The notes below the pieces were generated by a model. It was given only the letters and a program-made list of their open reading frames with translations, was not told the DNA's origin and made no database searches. From Metallosphaera sedula DSM 5348 (lineage in GTDB: Archaea; Thermoproteota; Thermoprotei_A; Sulfolobales; Sulfolobaceae): 64,000 nucleotides of DNA. Position 1 is the first letter of the stretch. Each line of letters begins with the position of its first letter. Shown in pieces: positions 6,943-19,046 of this stretch. Location of the stretch: positions 1,501,789 through 1,565,788 of the forward strand of contig NC_009440.1 of assembly GCF_000016605.1 (NCBI RefSeq). Direction: 5' to 3'. A program made the translations under genes and the position numbers.

Positions 6943-7136
6943 ACTTTCACCAAAATATCTTTTATATCAAAAATATTTAAGCTTTGTGGTGTTGTTTATA
7001 ATTTGTAAAAACATTCTTTAATTATCAATTAGATAGGTATGTAAGATACTTACCCTCTTTTCCCTAGAGATCCCTAGATGAATATGTTTGATAAAAAATA
7101 TAAGTAAGCTAAATTAAATAATCATGAGGGATAGAC
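6943..7136. promoter_or_regulatory. Divergent promoter region between dsrE2B and dsrE3A
   Basis: Two opposed promoters: CTTAAATATT (6972-6981, minus) for dsrE2B-tusA and AAAATATAAG (7095-7104, plus) for dsrE3A. Between them is an imperfect inverted repeat, GGTATGTA-AGA-TACTTACC (7036-7054, 7 of 8 arm positions paired), and a tandem pair of TCCCTAGA-type 10-mers (7061-7070 and 7071-7080). Both are plausible sites for a shared regulator of sulfur genes; binding is inferred only from symmetry and position. Confidence 0.5.
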
Positions 7137-10095: not shown

Positions 10096-12345
<2,250 letters not shown>

Positions 12346-16281: not shown

Positions 16282-16830
16282 GTGATAAACGTTATAGGGA
16301 TACTGGTGACCGTGGGTTTAATCGCTATAGCTCACGGCCTCGAACCAGATCACATCTCGTCAGCAAGGTTGGTTAAAAAGAGTAGGAAACTGGTGGAGAT
16401 GGCAGTATTTCACTCTGCAGGTTTCGCCTTGATAGCAGTCCCAATTTCTCTCGTTCTAATCTACTTTAGTTACGCGAAAGCTGAGATAGAGGTAGCGTCT
16501 GACCTAGTGGGGATAATATTTGGCGTTCTTCTCTTGGTTTCAGGAATATTCGGAATGGAGTTTGAAGTTGAACCCAAGAGTACAGGCCTTCTTCAGGGCA
16601 TGTTTAACGTTACCCCTTCCAAGATAGTTACCATAATTCTGGCCATGAATACTGGGTCAATCCCTCTAGGAGCGGGAGTGATAGCCTGGTTCGCCGTGGT
16701 GACTAGCCTCTCAATCATACTTGTTGGTGTGATAACCTTGCGTGTGCCTAGAAACCTCGATAGGGTACTGGACGTCATTATTGGAACCATAACCATTGCG
16801 TTCTTCATTTTCCTGCTGAGCGAAAGGTAA
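16282..16830 (+). CDS. NiCoT-like small metal transporter
   Basis: A 182-residue membrane protein with about five hydrophobic segments. The first contains HGLEPDH (residues 18-24), which fits the HX4DH signature of nickel/cobalt permeases (NiCoT/NicO). It is shorter than classical NiCoT proteins (eight segments), so it may be a half-size relative or a sulfite-export-type relative. It is divergent from the lipoate operon. The start is GTG at 16282. Substrate unknown; cobalt or nickel is only suggested by the motif. Confidence 0.7.
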   Translation: MINVIGILVTVGLIAIAHGLEPDHISSARLVKKSRKLVEMAVFHSAGFALIAVPISLVLIYFSYAKAEIEVASDLVGIIFGVLLLVSGIFGMEFEVEPKSTGLLQGMFNVTPSKIVTIILAMNTGSIPLGAGVIAWFAVVTSLSIILVGVITLRVPRNLDRVLDVIIGTITIAFFIFLLSER

Positions 16831-16919
16831 CCTGTATCCCTTCAAATACCGTGTAAAATTCGATATTTGAATTGGAAACAAGTATTAACTTTTAAAATGT
16901 TAGACCCTTATATGAATTG

Positions 16920-17339
16920 ATGGAAGAAAGCCAGATAAGATATGTGTTAACCAACTTCAAGAGAATCGCTACAATTGGATTTTCCAAGGATCCAGAGAAA
17001 CCATCGCACAGGGTTCCCAAGTTTCTCATGGAACATGGATACGTAGTTTACCCCGTGAATCCCACTGTAACAGAGATCCTCGGAAGGAAGTCCTATCCTT
17101 CACTCAAGGATATCGAGGATGAGATAGAAGTTGTTCAGGTGTTTAGGCCCTCAAAGGATGTCCCTGTAATTATTGACCAAGTACTGGATAGGAAGAGGGA
17201 AAGAAATGACGTAAAGGCGATCTGGCTCCAAGAGGGAATAAGGGATGATAAATCCGCCGAGAGGGCCAGGGCCGAAGGTCTGATAGTTATCCAGGATAAG
17301 TGCATGTACAAGGAGTACGTAAAACTCTTTGGAGAATAA
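16920..17339 (+). CDS. CoA-binding domain protein (YccU family)
   Basis: A 139-residue Rossmann-type CoA_binding_2 protein: IATIGFSKDPEKPSHRVP at about 16-33, PVNPTVTEILG, then LQEGIRDD and the C-terminal DKCMYKEY. It is the same fold as the N-terminal domain of succinyl-CoA ligase alpha, but without catalytic residues. ATG 16920 was chosen over TTG 16917. A TATA-like stretch (TTTTAAAATG) lies about 25 bases upstream. Function unknown; probably ligand sensing. Confidence 0.85.
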   Translation: MEESQIRYVLTNFKRIATIGFSKDPEKPSHRVPKFLMEHGYVVYPVNPTVTEILGRKSYPSLKDIEDEIEVVQVFRPSKDVPVIIDQVLDRKRERNDVKAIWLQEGIRDDKSAERARAEGLIVIQDKCMYKEYVKLFGE

Positions 17340-17408: not shown

Positions 17409-17756
17409 ATGATGGAAGCTTTCGACACGTTCAAGGACACATTAAAAGAAAGGAAAGAGAGCATAAGATGTTGCTATAAGATTAGCGATACCGACGTTGA
17501 GTGCCTGTTTAAACTAATTGAACTTGGCGAGCCAAAGACGTCAGTGGAGCTCGGAAAGATAATGGGGCTAAGTAAGACTACGGTGGAAAATAGTATGAAG
17601 AAGCTAATAGAACTTGGATTAGTTGAAAGGATCAAGGTTGATGGCAAGAAGATTGGAAGGCCAAAATTCCTTTACGTCATTTCAGACAGCTTTCAGGAGA
17701 GAGTCAAAGCGGACCTCAAGAGATGTGCTGAAAAAATACTGTCAGCAACCTCCTAA
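17409..17756 (+). CDS. Winged-helix transcriptional regulator with cysteines (paralogue 1)
   Basis: A 115-residue winged helix-turn-helix protein: recognition helix around [13 protein letters not shown] (about 58-70) and a wing with IGRPKF. It is a clear paralogue of the regulator at 18208-18594; both share the order CY-ISDTD at the N terminus, the HTH, GRP in the wing and a cysteine in the last helix (Cys22 and Cys106 here). Those two aligned cysteines suggest thiol or persulfide sensing. TATA CTTTATAAATATTT (17394-17407) lies directly before the ATG, so this particular ATG may be preceded by a further upstream TATA. It overlaps the convergent TusA gene by 15 bases. Confidence 0.82.
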
Positions 17757-18002
17757 CTCCTGGACTTTACCTTCATTTCCGGATGAGGATCTCTTTTCGA
17801 GAACTAGGGTGTAGGTTCCATTCTGAGAAACGTGCTCTATAACCTTGCAATCCATCAACTTAACAGCCTCCATTATCATGTCGTCGCATTTGGGATCCTT
17901 AAACATGACCTTTAGCCTGCCCTCTTTCATTTTCATTAACTTTGCAGCTACTTTCATGAATGGTTCAGGACATTCTAGATCCAAAAGATTTAGCTCCTCC
18001 AT
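17742..18002 (-). CDS. TusA-like sulfur carrier protein (second copy)
   Basis: An 86-residue SirA/TusA family protein with the motif LECPEPFM; Cys11 is the likely sulfur carrier. It differs from the hdr-cluster TusA in having CPEP, not CPGP, and a C-terminal Ser/Gly-rich tail ending in Cys. It is flanked by the two paralogous regulators and a YHS protein, so it may report on or buffer sulfane sulfur for regulation. Confidence 0.85.
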
Positions 18003-18044
18003 GCAACTTAATGAATCCCAAAAAGCTAAAAAGTCTTCTTAATC

Positions 18045-18230
18045 ATGAGAGAAACCATGAAAGTTGTATGTCCTGTCTGCAACAGGCTATTTGAAGCTGA
18101 ATGCACTCCCTATCAGCAAAAGTATGAGGAAACTGTATACTATTTTGATACTGAGATATGCCAGCTCACTTTTATGAGAGAGCCCGAGAGATTCCGCTAC
18201 AAGTGCCCTAAGGCTTCGGAAAGCTCTTGA
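18045..18230 (+). CDS. YHS-domain metal-binding protein
   Basis: A 61-residue YHS-domain protein: [11 protein letters not shown] near the N terminus, [19 protein letters not shown] in the middle. YHS domains bind metal ions in copper and other metal-handling proteins. An alternative start at the ATG at 18057 would leave MKVVCPVCN. It is divergent from TusA-like and its last 23 bases overlap the convergent regulator gene. Confidence 0.8.
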
Positions 18231-18594
18231 GCTCTGCAGGAGTTAGACCACTAAAGAGCTGAGCGCAGTACTCGAAGTCCTTTACTATCTTATCAGTAAG
18301 AGCTTCCGCATCAACTGCTTTATATATGTACCTAGGCCTGCCTCCCTTAGATCCTTGATCCTTAACCCTCTCCACGAATCCAATGGAGATTAATTTATTC
18401 ACCGACCTATTTATGGACGCCTTGCTGAGCTTCAACACTGAGGCTAAATCATCCTCGGTCTTTGGTCCCATATTTATCAGTGCCTTAAGTATCTGAAAAT
18501 CCGTGTCAGATATATCGTAGCAGAAGCTTAGTGCCTCCACCAATCCTACTTCCCTTCCGGAAGGGAGTCTAGCTTTTAATTTTTGGACTTCCAT
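18208..18594 (-). CDS. Winged-helix transcriptional regulator with cysteines (paralogue 2)
   Basis: A 128-residue winged-helix regulator similar along its length to the 17409-17756 protein: [22 protein letters not shown] (recognition helix) and GGRPRYIY (wing), then a C-terminal helix with EYCAQLF. Cys25 and Cys110 align with Cys22 and Cys106 of the paralogue. A TATA element lies near 18624-18633, and a perfect inverted repeat TTTGCT-N6-AGCAAA (18636-18653) immediately upstream of it is a likely autoregulatory site. Confidence 0.84.
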
Positions 18595-18601
18595 TCTAAC
18601 T

Positions 18602-18653
18602 CACATAATATGTGGTAAAAACGTATATATAAATCTTTGCTTATTTTAGCAAA
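18602..18653. promoter_or_regulatory. Promoter and candidate operators of the 18208-18594 regulator
   Basis: Read on the minus strand it contains a TATA element (TTTATATATA, about 18624-18633). TTTGCT-TATTTT-AGCAAA (18636-18653) is an exact 6+6 inverted repeat just upstream of it, and CACAT-AAT-ATGTG (18602-18614) is an exact 5+5 repeat between TATA and the start codon. Both are classic positions for repressor binding. Confidence 0.55.
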
Positions 18654-18692: not shown

Positions 18693-19046
18693 TCAAGCCC
18701 AAAGCCCCCTCTTCATGTCCTCGAGCTTAGTAAACAGTGATATCTGAAAGTATCTCATTACCTCAATTGTAAAGTTTATAGCTTCCTGGTCAGGCATTTG
18801 AGATATTTTATTTCTAAGTTCGTTAACGAACCTAGTCATATCGTTGAAAGTTTGTTTAGTCAACTCGTACTTGGATAGGTCTAAGATTTGAATCAGTTCC
18901 TCCTTGGTCTTAGCCTGCTTTATGGCGTTATACATTTGCATCACGACGCCTTTCCCGGTTTTCCCAAACAGAGCTTCCTCTGGATTTCGCAGCCACCTGG
19001 CATATGTGGCTGCAAGTTTTTTAGCCTCATTCTCCTTGCTTTCCAT
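18693..19046 (-). CDS. Unknown helical protein
   Basis: A 117-residue, fully helical, charged protein without cysteine (EEALFGKTGKG early, then long amphipathic helices). I do not recognise a family. It has an ATG start and lies in a stretch of sulfur-related and regulatory genes, but nothing ties it to them except position. Confidence 0.65.
   Translation of the reverse strand: MESKENEAKKLAATYARWLRNPEEALFGKTGKGVVMQMYNAIKQAKTKEELIQILDLSKYELTKQTFNDMTRFVNELRNKISQMPDQEAINFTIEVMRYFQISLFTKLEDMKRGLWA

Follow-up and report, generated by a model that had tools for sequence, protein, structure and literature searches.

Cysteine-paired Lrs14-family proteins beside the sHdr genes of Metallosphaera sedula as candidate redox- or sulfur-responsive regulators

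The hdr genes of Sulfolobaceae are induced by sulfur, and a sirA gene and a DNA-binding-protein gene are listed among sulfur-responsive clusters in the same source (PMC11323534). The literature we found does not name a regulator of sulfur oxidation for this family. The stretch of DNA analysed here (“the window”, 64,000 nucleotides of the single-contig, 2,191,517-bp M. sedula genome) carries sHdr genes and two genes for small winged-helix proteins, each with a pair of cysteines, which raises the question of whether these proteins respond to thiol or sulfur chemistry and which promoters they control. The reading we prefer, with a probability of roughly one half, is that they are autoregulated thiol-switch regulators of the Lrs14 family, tied to a TusA/YHS module and responsive to redox state or to sulfur.

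Two Lrs14-family paralogues in a four-gene locus

Both regulator reading frames are found exactly where the original prediction had placed them, encoding proteins of 115 aa (LRS14s) and 128 aa (STA1). The locus contains the following features:

16917–17339, plus strand: gene for a CoA-binding protein (PF13380), directly upstream of LRS14s
17409–17756, plus strand: LRS14s, Lrs14-family winged-helix protein, orthologue of ST1889 (PDB 2d1h); NF040939, 120.9 bits
17742–18002, minus strand: TUSA2, a second TusA-like sulfur carrier; PF01206, 58.9 bits; CPxP Cys11
18003–18053, no strand assigned: TUSA2/YHS intergenic region, 51 bp, with a core, AAAAAGCTAAAAA, kept in six Metallosphaera genomes
18054–18230, plus strand: YHS-like small protein; weak PF04945 match, 22.3 bits, E = 1.4e-4
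18208–18594, minus strand: STA1, Sta1-type Lrs14-family winged-helix protein; NF053606, 135.2 bits

LRS14s, TUSA2, YHS and STA1 are arranged as two convergent pairs whose 3′ ends overlap (LRS14s/TUSA2 and YHS/STA1), and TUSA2 and YHS are transcribed divergently from the 51-bp region. The TusA and YHS genes expected between the regulators are both present, the YHS match lying below the Pfam cut-off of 30.3 bits. Elsewhere in the region, 16282–16830 encodes a small membrane protein that, in the regions examined, occurs at this locus only in Metallosphaera. The 117-aa protein encoded at 18693–19046 matches no Pfam family above cut-off; its gene adjoins STA1/YHS in most Sulfolobaceae, and in S. 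acidocaldarius it is a neighbour of YHS within the sHdr cluster. A 417-aa protein with internal repeat segments (10102–11355) is encoded between the sHdr and radical-SAM genes in most Sulfolobaceae.

LRS14s and STA1 are paralogues, as had been proposed; they align over 94 aa at 40% identity (E = 2e-24 in a single comparison) and share the ISDTD and GRP motifs. The Lrs14 model NF040939 (cut-off 90) gives 120.9 bits for LRS14s and 133.8 bits for STA1. The Sta1 model NF053606 (cut-off 80) gives 135.2 bits for STA1 and 74.0 bits for LRS14s, which for this reason is not filed as Sta1. All 19 LRS14s orthologues and all 16 STA1 orthologues tested match the Lrs14 family at E <= 1e-5. The GRP motif is invariant among orthologues, and the structural models show a winged helix between N-terminal and C-terminal helices, closely matching 6cmv (AbfR2) and 2d1h. 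By contrast, with the ArsR/SmtB model NF033788 (cut-off 55) the two proteins reach only 15.5 and 13.1 bits, which rules out membership of the ArsR family; TrmB and MarR match them better than Pfam HTH_5 does (23.4 and 21.7 bits, cut-off 22). Among the closest known counterparts of STA1, which scores above both curated cut-offs (NF053606 and NF040939), are Sta1 of Saccharolobus solfataricus and Lrs14; unlike STA1, these have no sulfur locus.

The closest solved structure to LRS14s is 2d1h, ST1889 of S. tokodaii (121 bits); over 108 aa its sequence shows no difference from that of the protein encoded at this locus in a genome that we take to be S. tokodaii (G078). LRS14s and ST1889 are 56% identical orthologues with the same neighbourhood and the same Cys-Cys...Cys set. 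Since we found no other S. tokodaii PDB chain of the family, we infer that 2d1h is also the protein described as Sto12a, whose structure has intrachain and interchain disulfides, to judge from the title of Shinkai et al. 2007 (via PMC4027180, PMC12529230; PMC9426492). The literature searched connects Sto12a/ST1889 neither with a function nor with sulfur genes. The families, and the structure of the LRS14s orthologue, are already known, and stable coiled-coil dimers that bind DNA have been described for Lrs14 relatives (PMC12529230).

Conservation, origin and predicted pairing of the cysteines

Cys22 and Cys106 of LRS14s align with Cys25 and Cys110 of STA1, in agreement with the original prediction, which was to fall if these residues were not conserved in orthologues. 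We find Cys25 and Cys110 of STA1 invariant in 30/30 Sulfolobaceae orthologues, and Cys21, Cys22 and Cys106 of LRS14s invariant in 31/31. The three cysteines are among only 16 invariant positions out of 115 in the 31 LRS14s sequences, and Cys21, which makes up a CC pair with Cys22, had previously been overlooked. In the neighbouring proteins, Cys11, Cys39 and the C-terminal Cys86 of TUSA2 are invariant in 27/27 sequences, as are C9, C12, C20, C39 and C54 of YHS in 26/26 (numbering from an in-frame start further upstream, at 18045).

YHS-type domains often handle metals. Together with the five invariant cysteines of the YHS protein, this would suit a metalloregulator, in which the regulator cysteines bind a metal ion or an iron-sulfur cluster and YHS and TusA serve as metal or sulfur handlers. 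However, each STA1 subunit has two cysteines only, with no conserved third ligand identified, and disulfides are reported for the ST1889 orthologue (PMC9426492); we consider this explanation highly improbable.

Among 108 Lrs14-family members, 84 carry both Cys22 and Cys106, 24 carry neither, and none carries only one. On a tree built without these two columns, a single change explains the pair, pointing to one origin. Co-occurrence of the two residues therefore represents one event, and we dropped it as a statistical proof of contact. From alignment and tree, the two cysteines are an inherited, long-kept feature of one Lrs14-family clade rather than one particular to LRS14s and STA1. A third M. 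sedula paralogue with the pair lies at an unrelated locus (1,955 kb), where its neighbours are amidohydrolase and TatD genes. The pair is also present in Sta1-like proteins of three other families (f8, f9 and f11), in whose sampled genomes DsrE3A was not detected; in f8 the neighbours are Hsp20, RHH, SpoIIM and TatD, as read from the translations. In Sulfurisphaera (genus g6), there are two LRS14s-type CC...C genes, of which only one belongs to the sulfur locus (L100 9585–9908; L134).

A structural disulfide would produce equal cysteine conservation, and the chief rival to our reading builds on this. It holds that the disulfides are permanent and stabilise the dimer in hot acidophiles, and that LRS14s and STA1 are general Lrs14-type proteins, DNA-organising or autoregulated, which receive no sulfur signal and are retained by gene order. 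The age of the pair, and its presence in the f8 proteins and in the amidohydrolase/TatD-locus paralogue, fit such a role. So does the best-studied M. sedula relative, AbfR1 (msed_2175), a paralogue in the same genome that acts as a nonspecific nucleoid protein, binding DNA nonspecifically as a dimer held by an intersubunit disulfide from a cysteine in the C-terminal helix (PMC12529230). AbfR1 differs from LRS14s in having no cysteine at position 22, and its helix-4 cysteine lies one alignment column off Cys106. On the other hand, AbfR2-like paralogues in the same cells are without both cysteines, so that their fold does not depend on the pair. We regard the structural explanation as possible, with a probability clearly short of that of the thiol-switch reading.

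The structural models suggest how the cysteines might be arranged. In the STA1 model (mean pLDDT 87.4), Cys25 ends helix 18–26 and Cys110 lies in the C-terminal helix 96–123. In the LRS14s model (mean pLDDT 88.8), Cys21 and Cys22 lie in helix 16–23 and Cys106 in helix 95–114. Neither sequence contains a CxxC motif, the redox motif of the Thermococcales regulator SurR. In alignment, Cys21 falls on the N-terminal cysteine of the template 3r0a (assuming an offset in residue numbering), which has in turn been aligned with C24 of OxsR from Haloferax volcanii, a residue that forms an intersubunit disulfide (PMC9426492). The position of OxsR C24 and MM_1094 C17 is thus occupied by Cys21 in LRS14s and by Phe24 in STA1. 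OxsR, a single-winged-helix protein of the TrmB family (arCOG02242), has one cysteine only, responds to hypochlorite and has no associated sulfur genes; cysteines of this arCOG02242 group, ST1889 among its members, have been proposed as redox sensors (PMC9426492), and the redox role of this position counts against purely structural disulfides. The simplest reading is that a pair of the Cys22-Cys106 type would bridge within the subunit in both proteins, and that Cys21-Cys21′ would bridge between subunits in LRS14s only.

Linkage to TusA, YHS and sHdr genes

The sHdr marker DsrE3A is found in 31/31 Sulfolobaceae and in 0/166 other genomes of the order, and LRS14s-type genes have the same distribution (31/31 versus 0/166). 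At E < 1e-20, LRS14s is detected in 30 of the 31 Sulfolobaceae and in no other genome of the order, the remaining one having a divergent copy. TUSA2 is present in 29/31 and YHS in 30/31 Sulfolobaceae. The predicted linkage with TusA, YHS and sHdr genes is conserved: of the 30 genomes that carry STA1, 23 have it 6–12 kb (about 10 kb) from DsrE3A. Since the surrounding ~20-kb region is largely syntenic, including its non-sulfur genes, linkage by itself is moderate evidence, and the synteny also suits structural proteins retained by gene order.

More telling are the loci that have been broken up. In four genomes from whose sHdr locus STA1 has departed, it still has TUSA2 (G042, G032) or YHS (G167, G171) beside it, and YHS or TUSA2 is retained in the sHdr cluster of G042, G163 and G179. 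That STA1 has kept these neighbours through rearrangement argues against a purely structural role. LRS14s tends to remain with the CoA-binding PF13380 gene, even in broken-up loci (G119, G163, G171 and G179). In G042, which we take to be S. acidocaldarius, both regulators are gone from the sHdr locus, STA1 lying near 103,976 and LRS14s near 1,057,463.

The original prediction went further, suggesting that the proteins may be an archaeal, separately evolved version of the bacterial repressors of sHdr and sox genes. Spelled out, this would be an independently evolved sulfane-sulfur sensor pair, in which polysulfide or TusA sulfur would bridge the cysteines and derepress sHdr and lipoate/LbpA genes. 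The proximity to DsrE3A, the shared distribution, the TusA gene embedded between the regulators and the induction of hdr genes by sulfur (PMC11323534) are all consistent with this proposal. Moreover, bacterial sHdrR, SoxR and SqrR have two conserved cysteines and are linked to sHdr and TusA genes, and sHdrR and SoxR use the cysteines for sulfane sensing with possible delivery by TusA (PMC12423496, PMC11582611). As a functional analogy the comparison is fair; the bacterial proteins belong to the ArsR family, unlike LRS14s and STA1. Sulfur- or thiol-responsive winged-helix regulators are already known in archaea, namely OxsR and SurR, the latter also an ArsR-family protein, whose cysteines sense elemental sulfur (PMC9426492). 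The part of the proposal that is not supported is specificity for sHdr or sox genes. The cysteine pair also occurs in the paralogue beside the amidohydrolase and TatD genes and in families f8, f9 and f11, where DsrE3A was not detected in the genomes sampled, and is therefore not tied to sHdr; the absence of both regulators from the sHdr locus of S. acidocaldarius points the same way, as do the promoters.

Promoters, candidate operators and a possible switch

The promoter elements considered are as follows:

7084–7119, plus strand: DsrE3A promoter footprint, 36 nt invariant in six Metallosphaera genomes; ATGTTTGATAAAAAATATAAGTAAGCTAAATTAAAT
18602–18614, minus strand: second palindrome, in the STA1 leader, CACATATTATGTG; intact in 4/6 Metallosphaera, with variants in G022 and G072
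18622–18635, minus strand: STA1 TATA/BRE region, GATTTATATATACG on the minus strand, assigned from sequence and conservation
18636–18653, minus strand: candidate autoregulatory operator, a perfect inverted repeat TTTGCT-AAAATA-AGCAAA, TTTGCTAAAATAAGCAAA, directly upstream of the STA1 TATA region

The palindrome at 18636–18653 is the sole clear operator candidate. TTTGCT-N6-AGCAAA occurs once in the 2.19-Mb genome. Its AGCAAA arm is kept in 6/6 Metallosphaera and its TTTGCT arm in 5/6 (TTTTCT in G159, one base changed); both arms are also kept in genus g2. The flanks upstream of it are unalignable. Lrs14 proteins are known to act as repressors of their own genes, from sites that overlap the core promoter (PMC12529230), and on this precedent autoregulation of STA1 through the candidate operator is likely.

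Control of sHdr genes finds no such support at the promoter level. The STA1-type palindrome is absent from the sHdr DsrE3A promoter. When the 52 upstream regions of the window were compared all against all (1326 pairs), STA1-DsrE3A ranked 78th and LRS14s-DsrE3A 444th, and neither this comparison nor a word search revealed a significantly shared operator between LRS14s or STA1 and the sHdr promoter. We rejected TTTGMTAAAAWA, found only at the STA1 and DsrE3A promoters in the genome, as a common operator: it was derived from those two sites, shuffles lead one to expect ~3 chance sites per genome, and the rank of 78th arises from a different segment. Separately, the upstream flank of the DsrE3A core promoter is unalignable across the six Metallosphaera genomes. 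The divergent DsrE2B and DsrE3A promoters (6943–7136) have in common the near-repeat AATATkTTTGATAwAAAAkATA, ranking 4th of the 1326 pairs; judged by sequence, these elements are a candidate operator of another sHdr regulator. With these results, we think the sensor pair of the original prediction unlikely. We are equally doubtful of its fullest form, a dedicated two-regulator Lrs14 switch that senses sulfane sulfur, is charged by a TusA-like carrier and sets sHdr expression, as a counterpart of sHdrR/SoxR built on an unrelated family.

Returning to autoregulated thiol switches, the preferred reading can be set out as a mechanism. LRS14s (ST1889/Sto12a-type) and STA1 (Sta1-type) would be small dimeric winged-helix DNA-binding proteins with an inherited thiol pair, of which one cysteine ends the N-terminal helix and the other sits in the C-terminal helix, the one used for dimerisation. 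Cys22-Cys106 and Cys25-Cys110 could most likely be bridged within a subunit, by a disulfide or possibly with extra sulfur, while Cys21 of LRS14s, at the OxsR intersubunit redox position, could tie the dimer. Making and breaking these bridges would be expected to alter dimer geometry and, with it, DNA binding, and the palindrome at 18636–18653 is most likely the site from which STA1 controls its own promoter. Given the adjacent TusA-like carrier and cysteine-rich YHS protein, a plausible signal is the state of thiol or sulfur loading, relayed through TusA; TUSA2 or YHS may deliver it, and sHdr or TUSA2/YHS genes may be among the targets. Overall, a conserved cluster beside sulfur-oxidation genes and unchanging cysteines make LRS14s and STA1 good candidates for redox- or sulfur-responsive switches.

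In the literature searched, no paper combines Lrs14 and TusA, and neither the conserved four-gene thiol module beside sHdr nor the idea of its regulatory role was found. The locus offers two named, genetically accessible candidates, a published orthologue structure, specific cysteines and one candidate operator. A thiol switch at this locus would offer a biological context for the disulfides of Sto12a, which have long lacked an explanation.
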